A stretch of 64,000 nt of DNA from Jiangella gansuensis DSM 44835 (GCF_000515395.1 NZ_KI911782.1:3408606-3472605); one strand, 5' to 3'; shown: positions 53,860-64,000, counted from the first letter of the stretch. Program-made: numbers and translations. The notes: generated from the letters alone by a model not told the origin.

Positions 53860-56800
53860 ATGTTCCGGAAGGTGCTCGTTGCCAATCGTGGTGAGATCGC
53901 GATCCGTGCGTTCCGTGCCGCCTACGAGCTGGGGGTCCGCACGGTGGCGGTCTTTCCGCATGAGGACCGCAACTCACTGCACCGGCTGAAGGCCGATGAG
54001 GCGTACGAGATCGGTGACGTCGGGCATCCGGTGCGGGCGTACTTGTCGGTGAGTGAGATGGTGCGCGCGGCGAAGGAGGCCGGCGCTGACGCGGTTTACC
54101 CAGGCTATGGCTTCCTGTCGGAGAACGCCGGGCTGGCGGAGGGGTGTGCCGATGTGGGCATCACGTTCATTGGTCCGCCGGCGGGGATCCTGAGCCTGAC
54201 GGGTAACAAAGCGCACGCTGTGGCGGCGGCCCGTGAGGCGGGCGTGCCAATGCTACGGTCGTCGGCGCCGTCAGCAGACCGGGACGAGCTGCTGGCGGCG
54301 GCGGAGAAGGTCGGGTTCCCGTTATTCGTCAAGGCGGTCGCCGGCGGTGGTGGCCGGGGAATGCGGCAGGTGGCCGACGCGACGCAGCTGGCCGACGCTA
54401 TCGACACGGCGGCGCGGGAGGCCCAGGCCGCTTTCGGCGACCGAGCGCTCTTCCTCGAGCAAGCGGTCATCAGCCCACGCCACATCGAGGTGCAGATCCT
54501 CGCTGACGGGCAGGGTGACGTCATCCACCTGTTCGAGCGAGACTGTTCGGTGCAGCGGCGGCATCAGAAGGTGGTGGAGCTGGCGCCGGCACCCAACCTC
54601 GATCCGGCCGTGCGCGAGCGGATCTGCGCCGACGCCGTCCGGTTCGCCCGGCACATCGGTTACCGCAACGCCGGGACGGTGGAGTTCCTGCTCGATCCGG
54701 ACGGTCGACACGTCTTCATCGAGATGAACCCACGCATTCAGGTGGAGCACACGGTCACCGAGGAGGTCACGGACGTCGACCTCGTCCAGGCACAGTTCCG
54801 CGTCGCGGCGGGAGAGCGGCTGGCCGACCTCGGGCTGTCGCAGGACGCGGTGAGCGTGCGGGGTGCGGCGTTGCAGTGCCGCATCACCACCGAGGACCCG
54901 GCTGACGGGTTCCGACCGGACACCGGCATCATCAGCGCCTATCGCTCACCGGGCGGCTCAGGGATCCGGCTCGACGGCGGCACTACCTTCGCCGGCAGCG
55001 AGGTCAGCCCGCACTTCGATTCACTGCTGGTGAAGCTGACCTGCCGGGGCCTCGACTTCGACACCGCTGTGGCGCGTGCTCGCCGCGCTCTGGCGGAGTT
55101 CCGCATTCGGGGTGTCCGGACGAACATCCCGTTCCTGCAGGCCGTGCTGGACGATCCCGACTTCCGCGCCGGTGGGGTGACGACGGCGTTCATCGACGAG
55201 CATCCGCAGCTGGTTGCCGGCCGAGCGTCGGCGGACCGCGGAACGCGGCTGCTGACCTATCTTGCCGACGTCACCGTGAACCGGCCGCACGGCGAGTCGC
55301 CCCGGGTGGGGAACCCGGTGACCAAGCTGCCGCCGGTTCCGGTAGGGGCTCCGCCGAACGGCTCGAAGCAGCGGCTGAAGGAGCTGGGGCCCGACGGCTT
55401 CGCGGCGTGGCTGCGTTCATCACCGTCGCTGCACGTCACCGACACGACCTTCCGCGACGCGCACCAGTCGTTGCTGGCCACGCGTGTCCGCACGAAGGAC
55501 CTGCTTGCGGTGGCGCCGGTGGTGGCGCGCACCGTGCCGCAGCTGCTCTCGCTGGAGTGTTGGGGTGGCGCCACCTATGACGTCGCGCTGCGCTTCCTGG
55601 CCGAGGATCCGTGGGAGCGGCTGGCCGCCCTGCGCCGGGCCGTCCCGAACGTCTGCCTCCAGATGCTGCTGCGGGGCCGCAATACAGTCGGTTACACGCC
55701 CTACCCGGTCGAGGTCACCACGGCCTTCGTCCAAAGAGGCCGCCATAACAGGGGTGGATATCTTCCGCATCTTCGACGCGCTGAACAACGTCGAGCCAAT
55801 GCGGCCGGCCATCGACGCAGTCCGGGAGACGGGGACGGCGGTCGCGGAGGTCGCCTTGTGCTACACAGGCGACCTGACCCACCCAAGCGAAACGCTGTAC
55901 ACGTTGGACTACTACCTGCGGCTGGCGGAGCAGATCGTCGCCGCCGGCGCCCATGTGCTGGCCATCAAGGACATGGCCGGGTTGCTGCGACCGCTCGCGG
56001 CCGCCCGGCTAGTGAGCGCGCTGCGGCGCGAGTTCGACTTGCCGGTGCACCTGCACACCCACGACACCGCCGGTGGGCAATTGGCGACGTATCTCGCCGC
56101 CGCCGCGGCCGGCGTCGACGCCGTCGACGGGGCGGTCGCGTCCATGGCCGGCACGACGTCGCAGCCGTCGCTGTCGGCGATTGCCGCCGCGACGGAGGGA
56201 GCCGATCGTTCGACGGAGCTGGACCTGCGCGCCGTTTGCGAGCTGGAACCGTACTGGCAGGCCGTCCGCGAGCTTTACGCTCCGTTCGAGGCAGGCCTCA
56301 GCGCCCCAACCGGGCGGGTGCACCACCACGAGATCCCCGGCGGACAGCTGTCGAACCTGCGCACGCAGGCGGTCGCCCTGGGTCTGGGCGATCGGTTCGA
56401 GGACATCGAAAGCATGTACGCCGCCGCCGACCGCATTCTCGGCCGCCTCGTCAAGGTCACGCCGTCGTCGAAGGTAGTCGGTGATCTCGCCTTGCACCTG
56501 GTCGGTTCCGGCGTGGACCCAGACGACTTTGCAGCCCACCCCGACCGATACGACATCCCCGACTCGGTGGTCCGGTTCCTGCGCGGTGAACTCGGCGACC
56601 CTCCCGGCGGCTGGCCCGAGCCGTTTCGCACCAAGGCGCTCGCCGGCCGGCCGTACACTCTGGCCGCTGCCGACCTTTCCGGCGAAGATCGTGCCGGCCT
56701 TGCCAGCGCCCGCCGCGATACCCTCAACCGGTTGCTGTTCCCGGGCCCCGCCCGCGAGTACCAGGCGCACCGAAACACCTATGGCGACACTAGCGTGCTG

Positions 56801-57235
56801 GCCACCAAGGAGTTCTTCTACGGACTGCAGCCGAACGAGGAGTACACCGTCGACCTGGAGCCTGGCGTCCGGCTGCTTATCGAGCTGCAGGCCGTGGGGG
56901 AGCCCGACGAACGGGGCATGCGTTCGGTCATGGCTACCCTCAACGGACAGCTCCGCCCGCTGCAGATCCGCGATCGGTCCGTCGCATCGGACGACACGCC
57001 GGCGGAGAAGGCCGACCACTCCAATCCGCGCCACGTCGCTGCGCCCTTCGCCGGTGTGGTCACCCTGGCGGTGGGCGAGGGCGACACCGTCGAGCCCGGC
57101 GGCACCGTCGCCACCATCGAGGCGATGAAGATGGAGGCCGCCATCACTACGTCCCACGGCGGGACCGTCCGCCGCCTCGCCGTCGGCACTGTACAACGCG
57201 TCGATGGCGGCGACCTGCTGCTGGAACTGGCCTGA
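53860..57235 (+). pseudogene. pyc: Pyruvate carboxylase interrupted by one extra base
   Basis: Corrected length is 1124 residues, normal for the enzyme. Biotin carboxylase domain: KVLVANRGEIAIRAFRAAYE, VKAVAGGGGRGMRQV, EMNPRIQVEHTVTEEVTD. Carboxyltransferase domain: VTDTTFRDAHQSLLATRVRT, DIFRIFDALNNVEPM, LHTHDTAGG. The C-terminal biotin domain carries EAMKMEA with the biotinylated Lys near 57129. Near 55733-55735 the sequence reads CCAAAGAGG where CCAAGAGG would keep the frame, so translation is shifted inside the carboxyltransferase domain. The enzyme would make oxaloacetate from pyruvate; as sequenced only the biotin carboxylase half could be produced. A base-call error is the main alternative. 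Confidence 0.88.
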
Positions 57236-57597: not shown

Positions 57598-58356
57598 ATG
57601 AACGATCTTGCGGGACTGTCGGCGATGGTGACGGGTGGCGTCTCGGGTATCGGCCGGGCGACGGCGGAGCTGTTGGCCGAGCGCGGCGCGAGAGTAGCGG
57701 TGTTGGACCGCACGATCGGCGCGTTGCCGGCGGGTCTTGTGCCGGTGGTGTGCGACGTGAGCGACGGGGACTCGGTGCGGCGTGCTGTCGGAGAGGCAGT
57801 CGAGGCGCTCGGTGGGGTGGATGTGCTGGTGAACAATGCCGGCATCGGGGCGGCGGGGACGGTGGAGGACAACGGCGACGCCGAATGGCATCGGGTGCTG
57901 GACGTGAACGTCGTCGGTGCGGCACGGGTGACCCGGGCGGTGTTGCCGTTTCTGCGGCGCTCGGGTCGGGCGGCGATTGTGAACACGTGCTCGGTTGCGG
58001 CGACGGCCGGGTTGCCGCAGCGGGCGTTGTACAGCGCGAGCAAGGGGGCGGTGTTGGCGTTGACGCTGGCGATGGCCGCGGATCATGTGCGGGAGGGGAT
58101 CCGGGTGAATTGCGTGAACCCGGGGACGGCGGACACGCCGTGGGTGCAGCGGCTGCTTGATGTCGCGGACGATCCGGTTGCGGAGCGGGCGGCTCTCGAG
58201 GCACGTCAGCCAATGGGCCGGCTGGTGAGCGCGGCGGAGGTGGCCGAGGCGATCGTGTACCTGGCCAGTCCGGCGGCTGGCTCGGTGACCGGGACGGTGT
58301 TGGCCGTTGACGGCGGGATGCAGGGTCTACGGTTGCGGTCGGCGGCGACCCGATGA
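57598..58356 (+). CDS. SDR family NAD(P)-dependent oxidoreductase
   Basis: 252 residues, the classical short-chain dehydrogenase length. Cofactor motif TGGVSGIG, NNAGIGAAG, catalytic Ser in IVNTCSVAATAG and YSASK. It ends in a typical DGGMQG loop. Substrate unknown; its linkage to an IclR regulator and a second SDR suggests two successive oxidation steps in the breakdown of one sugar or alcohol. It overlaps the IclR gene by four bases. Confidence 0.9.
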   Translation: MNDLAGLSAMVTGGVSGIGRATAELLAERGARVAVLDRTIGALPAGLVPVVCDVSDGDSVRRAVGEAVEALGGVDVLVNNAGIGAAGTVEDNGDAEWHRVLDVNVVGAARVTRAVLPFLRRSGRAAIVNTCSVAATAGLPQRALYSASKGAVLALTLAMAADHVREGIRVNCVNPGTADTPWVQRLLDVADDPVAERAALEARQPMGRLVSAAEVAEAIVYLASPAAGSVTGTVLAVDGGMQGLRLRSAATR

Positions 58357-59111
58357 CGGTCCCTGGTGAGGACGGCCGGGTCGTTGGCGCCGAGCGGGTG
58401 TTGGTGGTGTTGCGTGAGCTGGCTGGCCGGCCGGACGGTGCGAGTCTGGATGAGTTGTCTCGTGCGGTAGGCGGGTCGAAGCCGACGATCCATCGGGCGT
58501 TGGGTGCGCTGCGGCGGGTGGGGTTCGCTGTGCAGGATGAGCGTGGCCACTATTTACTGGGGGATGAGTTCTTGAGGTTGGCGTTCGCTCATCATGAGCA
58601 GCGCCCGGAGCATGTTCGGGTTCGACCCGTGTTGGAGGGGCTGGCGCGGCGTTTCGGGGAGACGGCGCACTACGCCGTCCTCGCCGGTCGCGAGATCGTC
58701 TACCGGGCCAAGGTCGATCCACCGTCGGGTGCGGTGAAGCTGACGTCGGAGATCGGCGGGCGCAACCCGGCACATTCCACCGGTGTCGGCAAGCTGCTGT
58801 TGTCCTTCGCCCTGCCCACCGATGACGCAGTGCGCGAATGGGTGCGCGCCGGCGGGTTGCCGCGCCGCACCCCTAACACGATCACCACGGTGGACGCATT
58901 CGTGGCGGAGCTGGCACGCATCCGCGAGCAGGAATATGCCCTGGACGATCAGGAGAACGAGGACGGTGTGGCGTGCCTGGCTGTGCCGGTGTGGCTGACC
59001 GGGCCCGGCCGGCCCAGCGGCGCGGTCAGTGTCAGCGCGGTCGCTTACCGCACCCCGCTGTCCGCATTGGTCGAGGCAGTTGATGAGGTTCGTTCGACGG
59101 TGGGGGCGTGA
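58353..59111 (+). CDS. IclR family transcriptional regulator
   Basis: A 252-residue protein. N-terminal winged helix: RVLVVLRELAGRPDGASLDE, then GGSKPTIHRALGALRRVGFA. The C-terminal effector domain has VYRAKVDPPSGAVKLTSEIG and NPAHSTGVGKLLLSF. It lies between two SDR genes, overlapping both, so the three are one operon and the regulator probably senses their substrate. Confidence 0.92.
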   Translation: MTVPGEDGRVVGAERVLVVLRELAGRPDGASLDELSRAVGGSKPTIHRALGALRRVGFAVQDERGHYLLGDEFLRLAFAHHEQRPEHVRVRPVLEGLARRFGETAHYAVLAGREIVYRAKVDPPSGAVKLTSEIGGRNPAHSTGVGKLLLSFALPTDDAVREWVRAGGLPRRTPNTITTVDAFVAELARIREQEYALDDQENEDGVACLAVPVWLTGPGRPSGAVSVSAVAYRTPLSALVEAVDEVRSTVGA

Positions 59112-59866
59112 AGAACGTGACAGTGTTCTCTGGTCAGACCGCGGTGGTGTTCGGCGCCGGCGCGGGGATCGGGCGTGCGGTGGCCGTAGCGCTCGCCGTG
59201 GACGGCGCGACGGTGATCTGTTCCGACATCAACGCGCGGGCCGCACGCGAGACGGCGGAACTCATCTGCGGCAGCGTCGATGCGGCCGCGGTGACGGCGG
59301 ATGTGGCTGACCAGGGTGCGGTCGAGGCCGCAGTGACTGAGGCGGCGGAGCGGTCCGGACAGGTCCACGTGGTGGTGAACTGCGTGGGGATTACCGGCAC
59401 GACCGGGATGCCCAGCCACGAGTACGACCTTGCCGAGTTCGACCGCGTCTACCGGGTCAACCTGCGCGGGGCGCTGGTGGTCAGCCAGGTGGCGGTACGG
59501 CACATGCTGGGGCACGGCTACGGGCGGGTGGTGCATTTCGCCTCTATCGCCGGCAAGGAAGGGAACCCGAACATGATCGGGTACTCGGCGACCAAGGCCG
59601 GATTGATCGGCATGGTGAAGGCCCAGGGCAAGGAGTACGCCGGCACCGGGATCACGGTGAACGCCATCGCGCCCGCGGTGATCCACACCGACCTGGTCGA
59701 CGCGCTGCCTGACGAGGTCGTGGACTACATGGTGGCGAAGATCCCCATGGGACGGACCGGCACACTGGAGGAGGCGGCCGCGTTGGCGACCTTCATCGCC
59801 TCCCCCGCATGCGGGTTCACCACCGGATTCACATTCGATCTGTCCGGCGGCCGGGCGACCTACTAG
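59108..59866 (+). CDS. SDR family oxidoreductase, second of the pair
   Basis: A 252-residue protein from GTG 59108, overlapping the IclR stop. Cofactor loop GAGAGIG (no Thr before it), NCVGITG in place of the usual NNAG, then the catalytic YSATK after HFASIAGKEGNPNMIG. The segment GKEGNPN is frequent in SDRs acting on sugars such as L-rhamnose or L-fucose derivatives; this is only suggestive. Confidence 0.88.
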   Translation: MKNVTVFSGQTAVVFGAGAGIGRAVAVALAVDGATVICSDINARAARETAELICGSVDAAAVTADVADQGAVEAAVTEAAERSGQVHVVVNCVGITGTTGMPSHEYDLAEFDRVYRVNLRGALVVSQVAVRHMLGHGYGRVVHFASIAGKEGNPNMIGYSATKAGLIGMVKAQGKEYAGTGITVNAIAPAVIHTDLVDALPDEVVDYMVAKIPMGRTGTLEEAAALATFIASPACGFTTGFTFDLSGGRATY

Positions 59867-60288: not shown

Positions 60289-61452
60289 TCAATCGCTCAG
60301 TTGACGGACTATTTCGGCGTAGACAGATGCGGCGGTCACGACGTCGATGAGATTGATCCACTCGTCGTCTGTATGTGCTTGGGCGATCGAGCCCGGCCCG
60401 AGAACTACGGACGGAACTCCGCCCCGCCGGCTGAGCTTGCTGGCATCGGTGCCGAACGTGACGTGTTGGGGGATCGCGTGCGCGCGGTGTGCCTTGCACG
60501 CGGAGATGACGGCGTGAACGAGTGGATGATCGGCGGGAGTATCGAGTCCGTAGTCGACCACCGGTGTATCGGTGATCGAAGCTCGAACGCCCGTGTCTTC
60601 GAGGTCGTCGAGCAGCTGCGTGATCTCATTGACGACGTCATGGGGCTCGTCGCTGGGCAGGGTGCGGATATCCACATCGAACGCGCAACGGTCCGGGACG
60701 ATGTTGAAGGCGTGCCCGCCGGTAATCCGGTTGACAGACAATGTGGGAGCGTGGGCGAAAGTAGCCAGGGTCCTGATGCGCTGGTCGTTCCAGTGGCGCA
60801 GCGCTTGGATCGCTGCGTACGCATCCATGATGGCGTTGCGCCCCTCACTGGGACGAGAGCTGTGCGCAGCTTGTCCGGCGACGGTGATCCGCATGCGCAC
60901 ACAGCCACTATGGCTGATGACCGGCGCCAGCCCGGTCGGCTCGACCACGATGGCCGCCGTGGCGTCGGGCCGCGTATCGACATAGTGCAGTACGCCGCGA
61001 TATTGGTGCTCCTCGTCAACGGCGCCCAGCAGGACGACGTCCATGTTCAGGTCGTCCGGCGAGGCGGCGAGTTCAGCGAGCGCTAGGAGGACTGCGGCGA
61101 GCCCGCCCTTGGCGTCGCAGGCCCCCCGCCCGTAGAGACGGCCGCCGATTATCCGAGCGTCTGGGGTGTGCGTGCCGGTCGGCAGTCCGACGGTGTCCGT
61201 GTGCACCTCGAAGACAATGACACCGGCAGGGCGGGGAGCGCACAGCCGGGCTGTGAGATTGGGCCGCCCAGGGAGCGCGTCGGAGAGTAGAGTCTCCATT
61301 CCCAACTGTGCGCAGTGCGCCGCCAGATATTGTGCGACCGCCTGTTCGCCCGGCGAGTCTGGGTCGTACGCCGGATTGACAGAGGGAATCTGTACCAGCT
61401 CGGTGAGCAGGTCGCCCGCCCGGTTCACGTCGACGCCGGGAGGCCGGGCCAT
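60289..61452 (-). CDS. M20 family metallopeptidase (ArgE/DapE/CPG2-like)
   Basis: A 387-residue protein. Metal ligands and catalytic residues in family order: IVFEVHTDTVG (His and Asp), GRGACDAKGG (bridging Asp), GAVDEEHQYRG (catalytic Glu pair), VVEPTG, and the final His in SIAQAHTDDEWI. The dimerisation domain lies between, around GQAAHSSRPSEGRNAI. Its ATG shares one base with the stop of the upstream fusion gene, so both are made together. It should release an amino acid or amine from an N-acyl compound. Confidence 0.9.
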   Translation of the reverse strand: MARPPGVDVNRAGDLLTELVQIPSVNPAYDPDSPGEQAVAQYLAAHCAQLGMETLLSDALPGRPNLTARLCAPRPAGVIVFEVHTDTVGLPTGTHTPDARIIGGRLYGRGACDAKGGLAAVLLALAELAASPDDLNMDVVLLGAVDEEHQYRGVLHYVDTRPDATAAIVVEPTGLAPVISHSGCVRMRITVAGQAAHSSRPSEGRNAIMDAYAAIQALRHWNDQRIRTLATFAHAPTLSVNRITGGHAFNIVPDRCAFDVDIRTLPSDEPHDVVNEITQLLDDLEDTGVRASITDTPVVDYGLDTPADHPLVHAVISACKAHRAHAIPQHVTFGTDASKLSRRGGVPSVVLGPGSIAQAHTDDEWINLIDVVTAASVYAEIVRQLSD

Positions 61453-63446
61453 CAGCTCAGTTCCTCGAGGTGGTGAAGGGCGGCGTCGATGTCGGCGTCG
61501 TCATTGAACAGATGAATGGAGAACCTGATCCGGCCGTCGCCGCCCCAGGCGAGGACGCCGCGCTCCGCCAGCGCCTTGGCGAGCTTCTGCCCATCCGAAG
61601 CCGCAGCGGTGATGGTGCCGGCGCGCTGCCGTGTATCGGTAGGGGTGAGCACGTCGTAGCCCGCCGCTGCCAGACCGTCGATGAGCCGTCCGCCGAGCCG
61701 ATGGACATGCGCTTCGATCTGCTCGGGCGGATAACGCCGCAAGTAGCGCAATGATGCGTCCAGCAGGTAAAGGCTCGGAAAGCTGGGGTAGCCGAGTTCG
61801 AAGCGACGAGTGCCGGGCCACAGGTCGTACCGGTCGAATCGATCGGGGGTGAACAGGTCGGGTACGGATCGCCAGCCGACACCGGTGCGTGCCAGATCGA
61901 TGCGCTGAGGGTCGCGGCAATGGACCACACCCGTGCCGTGGGGGCCTAGTAGCCACTTGTAAGTACTGGCAACGACGATGTCAGCCACCATAGCGTCGAC
62001 TGGGATCACACCGAGTGACTGGGTGGCATCGATGATCAGTAACGCGTCGGCGTCGTTGGCGACGGAGGCGAGCGCGGCAAGGTCGAGGCGGTGACCGGAC
62101 AGATAGCTCACGTGGCTTACGACGATTGCAGCGGTGCGGTCGTCGACAGCTGCTGCGATGTCCTCGACATCGAACTGCCAGGAACGGTGCGGGACGATGC
62201 GGGTCTCGACACCACGTTTGCGTAGGGCGAGGAGAGGCTGCACGACTGACGGGAACTCGAGGGTGGAGGAGACGACGTTGCTTCCGGGCGTCCAAGGGAT
62301 GGCGCCAACAGTCCGGTTGAGTGCCTCGGAGGCGTTGGAAAGCAGCGCCATTTCATCTGGTTTGCCGTTCAGCAGCGCGGCTAGGTGGCCGCGGCAGGCG
62401 ACGAGGACCTCTTCGTGGGCCGCTCGACCTTCTTCACCGGCGGCCTTGTTGCGCAGGTAGGCCGCTTGTGCAGTGGCGTGGGCCCGAAGAGGCGGGCCCT
62501 CGGCGCCGGTGTAGAAGTAGTGAACGTCCTTCAGCCCGATGAAGTCGTCTTTCGTGGCAGGCAGCGGATCGGACTGTGGCGTGTCAACAGCTGAAGCAGG
62601 ATCCGCAGGCGGGGCCGGGGCCGCGTTGGCGAGCAGTATGGCTAGGTTGCTGCCGAAGATGTCGGCGACCTCGGTGTTCGTGAGGCTCGGCGGCAGAGTA
62701 GGGTGCGCGGCCTGGTCGAAGGAAACCCAGTCCAGTGCGGGAGAGAAGTCGGAACCCCAGAAGAGTCGTCTGGTCCCGAAGCGCTCGACCAGCGCCTCGA
62801 TGTACAGAAGCGCATTGTGGTATGGATAAACGTGTGGCGGTTCCTGGGTGGCATAGAGCCCCGACACCTTGACGCCGACGTGTGGCAGGCTGGCCAAGGA
62901 GAGCAGCGGCCGCAACCGCTGCCGGGCCTGCGCTCCGGAGTGGATCGGATGCTGGCCCGGTAGACCGAGATGCGAGAAGAGCACGGCGCAGGGAGCCACC
63001 GCCGCCACCGCGTGGGCAATGGCCGAAGTGGCGGTCGGCGTCGCATTTAGGCTGAGTAGCCGTGCCCGTTGGCCAAGGGCCCGAAGGACCTCGGGCGGCC
63101 AAGCCGCAAACGCCGCCGCATCCTCGCTGTCGAGGAGATACAGGGAGAAGCCGAGAAATCCCCGTTCGACGAGTTCCTTGATCGACTCGATGCTCGGAGC
63201 CGGGGCCACAGATAGGTACGCCAGTGGGACCATCCACGGGTGCTCGCGTGAACGGCGCAGGATGTAGGCGTTGTTTCCAACGTATTCGGGGCTGCCCTCG
63301 TAGCCCACCACCACGGCGCGGTCGATCCCGTGCGCGCGGCGGATTCTGTCGTAGGTCCGCAGTTCCTCGTCGGCCTCGAGCCGTTGTGCGTATCGCCCGC
63401 CGAAACCACGCTCGAATACATGGATGTGCGCGTCAAGGCGGGGCAT
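61452..63446 (-). CDS. Amidohydrolase-class V aminotransferase fusion protein
   Basis: 664 residues from ATG 63446, with AGGAGAGGA upstream. Residues 1 to about 285 are an amidohydrolase-2 (TIM-barrel) domain: MPRLDAHIHVFERGF with the HxH metal motif, VLFSHLGLPGQHP, and FWGSDFSPALDW near the end. After a linker (about 286-300), residues 300-664 are a class V PLP-dependent aminotransferase/desulfurase fold: LLIIDATQSLG with Asp473, the Schiff-base Lys497 in ASTYKWLLGPHGTG, and RFELGYPSFPSLYLL. Both domains look complete. This pairing on one chain is unusual. With the co-translated M20 peptidase it suggests stepwise breakdown of an N-acylated cyclic or amino compound (inference). Confidence 0.88.
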   Translation of the reverse strand: MPRLDAHIHVFERGFGGRYAQRLEADEELRTYDRIRRAHGIDRAVVVGYEGSPEYVGNNAYILRRSREHPWMVPLAYLSVAPAPSIESIKELVERGFLGFSLYLLDSEDAAAFAAWPPEVLRALGQRARLLSLNATPTATSAIAHAVAAVAPCAVLFSHLGLPGQHPIHSGAQARQRLRPLLSLASLPHVGVKVSGLYATQEPPHVYPYHNALLYIEALVERFGTRRLFWGSDFSPALDWVSFDQAAHPTLPPSLTNTEVADIFGSNLAILLANAAPAPPADPASAVDTPQSDPLPATKDDFIGLKDVHYFYTGAEGPPLRAHATAQAAYLRNKAAGEEGRAAHEEVLVACRGHLAALLNGKPDEMALLSNASEALNRTVGAIPWTPGSNVVSSTLEFPSVVQPLLALRKRGVETRIVPHRSWQFDVEDIAAAVDDRTAAIVVSHVSYLSGHRLDLAALASVANDADALLIIDATQSLGVIPVDAMVADIVVASTYKWLLGPHGTGVVHCRDPQRIDLARTGVGWRSVPDLFTPDRFDRYDLWPGTRRFELGYPSFPSLYLLDASLRYLRRYPPEQIEAHVHRLGGRLIDGLAAAGYDVLTPTDTRQRAGTITAAASDGQKLAKALAERGVLAWGGDGRIRFSIHLFNDDADIDAALHHLEELS

Positions 63447-63508
63447 AACGTCCTCTCCTGGTCGTCGGAACTTGATGCAAATCATGAGCTATATGGATGA
63501 CGAGCCTG

Positions 63509-63612: not shown

Positions 63613-63735
63613 ATGAGCTCTGCTGAGGAGCGCTTGGCCGGGGTGCTGGCCCAGGCGCGAGCCCGCTGGGCCGGCAGGTGTTCCCGAGTGGTCCGGCAAG
63701 CTGTTCGGCTGGCGAAAGGACGGAGTGCGGTATGA
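63613..63735 (+). CDS. 40-codon reading frame coupled to the epimerase gene
   Basis: ATG 63613 with GAGGGGGAA upstream; stop at 63733-63735 overlaps the next ATG as ATGA. The peptide is short, basic and helical (SSAEERLAGVLAQARARW). No family is recognised. It could be a real small protein, a leader that couples translation, or a truncated relic; the alternative frame WSGKLFGWRKDG over the same bases makes the relic reading possible. Confidence 0.4.
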   Translation: MSSAEERLAGVLAQARARWAGRCSRVVRQAVRLAKGRSAV

Positions 63736-64000
63736 AGGTGTTGGTGATCGGGGGAGCAGGCCGGGTCGGTCACATGATCGTTGGACCTCTATCTCGGCGG
63801 CACACGGTCCGTGTTGCAGATCGTGGTCCGGGCAAGCTGCGTCAGGACGGGATCGAAGTCGTGACTGTCGACGTCACGGATGCCGCGTCGTTGCGCCGGG
63901 CGATGAGTTCACAGCAGGCGCTGATCTATGCGGCGATGGGGCGCCAGGAGGATTGGGGCACCATCGGGGGCTGGGCAGAGAGCCATTTTGACGTCAACGT
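63732..64000 (+). CDS. NAD-dependent epimerase/dehydratase family protein, partial at window end
   Basis: The first 89 codons are visible: the Rossmann start MKVLVIGGAGRVGHMIVGPL with GGAGRVG, acidic strand-end VRVADRGP, and VVTVDVTDAASLRRAM, the extended-SDR layout. The frame is open at the window edge. It is divergent from the fusion-protein operon, sharing its control region. Substrate unknown; probably a nucleotide sugar or sugar lactone. Confidence 0.8.
   Translation, partial: MKVLVIGGAGRVGHMIVGPLSRRHTVRVADRGPGKLRQDGIEVVTVDVTDAASLRRAMSSQQALIYAAMGRQEDWGTIGGWAESHFDVN

Follow-up and report, generated by a model that had tools for sequence, protein, structure and literature searches.

The window analysed here, a 64,000-nucleotide stretch of the Jiangella gansuensis genome, carries on its minus strand a gene (61452..63446) whose 664-aa product joins an amidohydrolase (AH) domain to a class V PLP enzyme (AT) domain, as judged from the open frame, its translation and Pfam matches. 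The plus strand across the same interval is full of stops. ORF prediction runs the fused frame to 63485, and an ATG at 63446 is the other candidate start; the ATG is the likelier of the two because AGGAGAGG (63452..63459, minus), read directly from the sequence as a likely ribosome-binding site, sits 5 nt upstream. The gene is the sole full-length match to the fusion within the J. gansuensis genome, which for strain YIM 002T comprises 5,585,780 bases obtained by Illumina/454 sequencing and assembled into one scaffold from 9 contigs (PMC5292007).

The fused gene is followed by that of an M20 metallo-deacylase/peptidase of the ArgE/DapE type (60289..61452, minus), the start codon of which lies within the stop codon of the fusion (TGATG; GAGCTGATGGCC). 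Because of this overlap, co-translation of the two proteins by translational coupling is plausible, as had been proposed in an earlier reading made from the sequence alone (the sequence-only reading). The M20 protein matches Peptidase_M20 (98 bits) and M20_dimer (84 bits) in Pfam, each above its gathering score. Its likeness to ArgE/DapE suggests that it removes an N-acyl group, and an amide-cleaving step is better given to M20 than to AH. The pairing of the fusion with M20 made in the sequence-only reading is upheld, and an N-acylated, cyclic amino compound, close to the N-acylated or cyclic one put forward there, is a reasonable substrate class.

Three plus-strand genes lie on the far side of M20: a short-chain dehydrogenase, SDR1 (57598..58356), which is 70% identical to the SDR that accompanies a FAH hydrolase in L049, the cluster of Microcella alkaliphila; an IclR-family regulator (58353..59111), recognised by Pfam/NCBIfam; and a second short-chain dehydrogenase, SDR2 (59108..59866), whose membership of the cluster is uncertain. 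A pyruvate carboxylase gene (53860-57235, plus) is frameshifted near 55735-55745, with one frame running from 53860 and the other through 57235, either by decay or by sequencing error. On the other side of the fusion, the start of a divergent NAD-dependent epimerase gene (63732..64000, plus) reaches the window end, and beyond it (L039 10337-14071) follow genes for a 396-aa protein, a creatininase-family protein and a Gfo/Idh/MocA dehydrogenase. The 396-aa protein (L039 11075-12262, plus) has no match in Pfam or NCBIfam; a homologue occurs at L037 10897-12627 (minus), so that the protein is present in the clusters of two Jiangella species. A SelA-like PLP protein (L039 16865-18133, minus) is also encoded near the cassette and has a homologue of 43% identity at L113 1280-3061 (minus). 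The J. gansuensis cluster holds neither FAH nor aldolase genes, and the FAH of this genome that comes closest by sequence (57% identical to the Microcella FAH) is encoded about 1.7 Mb away, next to ABC genes and an apparent rhamnosidase gene.

Pfam assigns residues 5-267 of the fusion to Amidohydro_2 (PF04909; E 1.3e-11, 45.3 bits vs a gathering cut-off of 26.4) and residues 346-654 to Aminotran_5 (PF00266; E 7.9e-32, 111 bits vs 21.5). Both domains are full length when compared with unfused homologues of 271 and 376 aa; identity to the J. muralis stand-alone proteins of these lengths is about 40% for AH and 51% for AT. The earlier claim of two complete domains on one polypeptide is thus borne out. 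Between them, at about residues 276-292 (62571..62621, minus), lies a Pro/Ala-rich linker, APAPPADPASAVDTPQS, and AlphaFold2 confidence falls below 50 from residue 277.

It could be argued that an assembly indel or a missing stop has merged two genes, as J. gansuensis has the single fused copy detected and the frameshifted pyruvate carboxylase gene, about 5 kb off, indicates that local errors or decay happen here. We consider such an artefact very improbable. Codons 262-312 are free of ATG and GTG in all three frames, and their one TTG is out of frame, so it is very unlikely that one sequencing indel masks a separate AT start. Codon-position G+C is coding-like, without a break, across AH, linker and AT, the linker is flexible and Pro/Ala-rich, and the overlap of the stop with the M20 start is typical of an intact operon. 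We are highly confident that the fusion and the cassette described below are, jointly, genuine.

The AH domain (about residues 1-275; 62622..63446, minus) is an Amidohydro_2/COG3618 TIM barrel by Pfam, alignment, AlphaFold2 and Foldseek. Residues H7, H9, H159 and D233 are invariant in an alignment of 25 relatives. The AlphaFold2 model of the domain has a pLDDT of 88.6, and Foldseek places it closest to 4do7/4dlf, 2ffi and 4i6k; a profile search of the PDB likewise returned 4dlf and 2ffi. Modelling of the whole fusion without an alignment gave a pLDDT of 37 and hence no usable domain placing. In NCBIfam, the best hydrolase match is L-fucono-1,5-lactonase (NF052480), which at 37.9 bits does not reach the cut-off of 400. 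Because the nearest structures are L-fucono-1,5-lactonase and 2-pyrone-4,6-dicarboxylate hydrolases, AH is probably a COG3618 lactonase-type hydrolase, for which a lactone ester is a more likely target than an amide. Of the ring or amide opening named in the sequence-only reading, ring opening, of a lactone, is the more likely. An amidase or hydantoinase type was set aside, since the nearest solved structures are all lactonases or 2-pyrone-4,6-dicarboxylate hydrolases. The HxH motif had been placed correctly at residues 7-9, but calling it a metal site is premature, since LigI, the best-known COG3618 member, is active without metal.

The AT domain (about residues 293-664; 61455..62570, minus) was delimited by Pfam and alignments as a class V PLP enzyme, the fold that had been predicted. 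The PLP lysine K497 and its partner D473, which had been located correctly, are conserved in the nearest relatives, as is a C-terminal RxRxSxH motif (R641) in the alignment; by analogy within the fold, this motif is expected to bind the carboxylate of an amino acid substrate. Among solved relatives, the nearest by sequence are SufS-type desulfurases and the C-S lyase C-DES, not transaminases. In the desulfurases, the catalytic cysteine sits in an inserted loop that the AT profile lacks, and this absence rules out a cysteine desulfurase of the SufS/IscS type.

No second fused copy was found among about 1,100 genomes, including 12 from the genus, 22 from the family/order and 397 from the phylum, together with 199 from the L067 genome's family and 400 from that of the Microcella genome, or among 30 AH loci, which were drawn from 84,980 species genomes by two short peptide patterns. 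Rare fused copies might escape this search, because few candidates were scored per genome at the first pass of the large searches and the loci came from two peptide patterns. A scan of genome contigs with the whole fusion as query returned no relative; the AH alignment as query did return relatives. In J. muralis, of the same genus (G009, contig NZ_LFXL01000030.1), AH and AT are separate genes on different contigs. The AT-domain tree places the fused AT as sister to a stand-alone protein from genome G829 (56% identity), within a stand-alone clade, and because it nests among stand-alone proteins the fusion is a derived, lineage-specific state. The AH tree gave no resolution around the fused row, and a combined AH and AT alignment was left out because its AT rows were misplaced.

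Two unfused loci appear ancestral-like. In an uncultured Propionibacteriaceae MAG (L067), AH and AT share a strand and a reading frame, a single TGA separates them, and the AT ATG follows 13 codons on; in a Microbacteriaceae-group genome (L113), the two genes overlap by ATGA. The J. gansuensis order of AH, AT and M20 is the L113 order with the first two genes joined. From such an arrangement, we infer that a single lost stop or a single small indel would have sufficed for fusion.

The strongest evidence comes from gene neighbourhoods elsewhere, where AH and AT are encoded by separate, adjoining genes within a widespread cassette. Such neighbouring AH and AT genes occur in several phyla, normally with M20 and Gfo/Idh/MocA. 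Across the 30 AH loci, which come from Actinomycetota, Planctomycetota, Chloroflexota, Latescibacterota and others, Gfo/Idh is near in 25, M20 in 20 and an AT of the fusion's clade in 10; these counts are lower bounds, as some loci end at contig ends. In the Microbacteriaceae genera Microcella, Cryobacterium, Microterricola and Microbacterium, genes for an HTH-cupin regulator, a CUT2 ABC transporter, Gfo, AH, AT and M20 are consecutive, and these cassettes adjoin a large glycosidase-looking gene. Its product of about 570 aa (L049 3527-5260, minus; also in L051, L053 and L072) is 66-84% identical among the four Microbacteriaceae and has no match in Pfam, NCBIfam or the PDB. In the Microcella locus (L049), that gene is followed by a FAH hydrolase and an SDR (70% identical to SDR1), and the best NCBIfam match of the FAH protein is 2,4-didehydro-3-deoxy-L-rhamnonate hydrolase (240 bits, below the cut-off of 500). 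This locus thus holds a dehydrogenase, a lactonase, an SDR and FAH together. In L113, a CUT1-type transporter, a creatininase and an enolase-superfamily gene precede AH and AT, and M20, Gfo/Idh, another amidohydrolase, a DUF4432 protein, which we take to be mutarotase-like, and RidA follow. Some kilobases from the nearest AT relative, in G829, there are a CUT2 transporter, Gfo, a COG3618 lactonase and a FAH 61% identical to that of Microcella. L048 carries KDG-aldolase-like and sugar-acid-dehydratase-like genes beside M20 and Gfo. Searches of the loci with E. coli YagE, YcgM and KduD gave matches, and those with E. coli KDG kinase, KDPG aldolase and GarL gave none. A long conserved gene block lies beside AH in Gemmatimonadota and Latescibacterota MAGs (L055, L058, L059, L062 and L052). 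A variant in L073, L075 and L076 has another class V protein, which matches transaminases over the full length, and a Cyclase/arylformamidase-like protein, both around Gfo, AH and M20.

The lactonase, the deacylase and the PLP enzyme co-occur with sugar transporters, a mutarotase-like protein, RidA, SDR and FAH, and for this reason our leading proposal is that the cassette of AH, AT, M20 and Gfo/Idh breaks down an N-acylated 2-amino sugar oxidatively and without phosphorylation. The Gfo/Idh dehydrogenase would oxidize the sugar to a lactone, which the AH domain would open to the aldonate. M20 would then take off the N-acyl group, leaving a 2-amino-aldonate, an alpha-amino acid, with which AT would form a Schiff base and eliminate the 3-OH to release ammonia and a 2-keto-3-deoxy acid. 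SDR and FAH hydrolase, or an aldolase in other lineages, would convert the latter to pyruvate and a small acid. The fusion would unite the lactonase and the PLP enzyme in one chain, and translational coupling would supply M20 beside them. We hold this proposal at somewhat less than an even chance for several reasons. L-amino acids are the usual substrates of M20 deacylases, and the data fix no stereochemistry; J. gansuensis has no FAH or aldolase of its own in the cluster; the best matches of the Gfo proteins are inositol dehydrogenases, far below cut-off; the creatininase, Cyclase and second class V transaminase of some clusters would be superfluous; and an AT of the fusion's clade is absent from the stretches analysed at 20 of the 30 AH loci.

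Other substrates and reactions are less probable. AT might transaminate or epimerize a lactone-derived amino acid, passing the nitrogen to a keto acid with nothing removed. Both activities occur in class V, and the transaminase-like protein of the L073, L075 and L076 clusters shows such an enzyme in the company of AH; nevertheless we regard this as unlikely, given that the closest solved relatives of AT are desulfurases and lyases and that the RidA gene in L113 suits the release of an enamine or imine. An N-acylated aminocyclitol or inositol derivative is a rather less probable substrate. On such a route, Gfo would produce a ketone, the creatininase-family protein would split a diketone ring in the manner of IolN, AH would open a lactone, and M20 and AT would treat the amine. 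Inositol 2-dehydrogenase is the best match of both Gfo proteins, the creatininase-family neighbour weakly matches the 3-dehydro-scyllo-inosose hydrolase IolN, and a creatininase is found in the J. gansuensis, J. muralis, L113 and L050 clusters. However, the Gfo and IolN matches lie far below curated cut-offs, MftE and creatininase score better than IolN, most cassettes are without a creatininase, and FAH and DUF4432 indicate aldose chemistry. Most doubtful of the three is a C-S lyase function, in which M20 would free an N-acylated cysteine S-conjugate and AT would convert it to a thiol, pyruvate and ammonia, with AH and Gfo processing the remainder. Solved relatives of AT include the L-cysteine/cystine C-S lyase 1elq, N-acetylated amino acids are possible M20 substrates, and a class V fold without the desulfurase cysteine suits a lyase, but sulfur genes were not recognised in the related clusters and the lactonase, sugar transporters and FAH would be left unaccounted for.

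We found no description of the AH-AT architecture or of the cassette in the searched families, structures and open literature; this agrees with the sequence-only reading, which knew of no described enzyme with such a layout. By itself the fusion is a modest curiosity of one species, and the cassette is the more useful result. As a Rosetta-stone link, the fusion implies that two enzymes encoded side by side in many cultured and uncultured bacteria share a pathway, and it gives a concrete, testable prediction to a cassette whose members carry only generic names (amidohydrolase, aminotransferase, M20 peptidase, Gfo/Idh). Should the assigned substrate be wrong, the fused protein would still be a convenient single handle for finding the right one. 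Should an amino sugar be correct, the cassette would join the ong chitin pathway as a second oxidative route for amino sugars, assembled independently of it. That it constitutes an undescribed, widespread oxidative N-acyl-amino-sugar pathway, in which a lactonase, M20 and a class V PLP deaminase take the place of the usual phosphorylating route and the lactonase and deaminase are fused in one species, is a tentative conclusion, which we put at clearly below an even chance.

Both domains fall into known superfamilies, and the proposed pathway is similar to established ones. L-fucono-1,5-lactonase BmulJ_04915 (PDB 4dlf/4do7) is a COG3618 member of the amidohydrolase superfamily (Hobbs 2013, as cited in PMC13406643). 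It is the best solved match of AH, resembles it in fold and in the pattern of HxH, His and Asp, and works in a sugar-acid pathway, the setting proposed for AH, but it is stand-alone and only about 20% identical. The 2-pyrone-4,6-dicarboxylate hydrolases of the LigI type (2ffi, 4i6k) share the fold and catalytic residue pattern; they belong to aromatic degradation, and their partner genes were not recognised around AH. AT shares whole-domain homology, the PLP lysine and aspartate and the C-terminal arginine with SufS-type desulfurases and C-DES; the desulfurases carry the catalytic cysteine loop that is deleted in AT, which is not tied to sulfur genes.

At the level of pathways, the non-phosphorylating diketo-hydrolase pathway for L-fucose and L-rhamnose has a dehydrogenase, a COG3618 lactonase, an SDR and FAH that recur in the related clusters, FAH being missing from that of J. 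gansuensis; its sugar-acid dehydratase is apparently replaced here by M20 and the PLP enzyme. In the ong pathway of Pseudoalteromonas, deacylation is followed by PLP-dependent deamination of an amino-aldonate to KDG, and a RidA protein is essential (PMC9537276); the enzymes OngB and OngC are, respectively, a D-aminoacylase and a D-amino acid deaminase-like protein (PMC9537276, PMC12017989). The ong pathway (OngB, OngC, OngD/RidA, KdgK) involves neither a lactonase nor a fusion, and where it uses OngB and OngC the fusion cluster has M20 and a class V AT in place of their homologues, yet the chemistry proposed for the cassette is chemistry proven, with other enzymes, in the ong pathway, which favours the amino-sugar proposal, and RidA also occurs in the related cluster L113.
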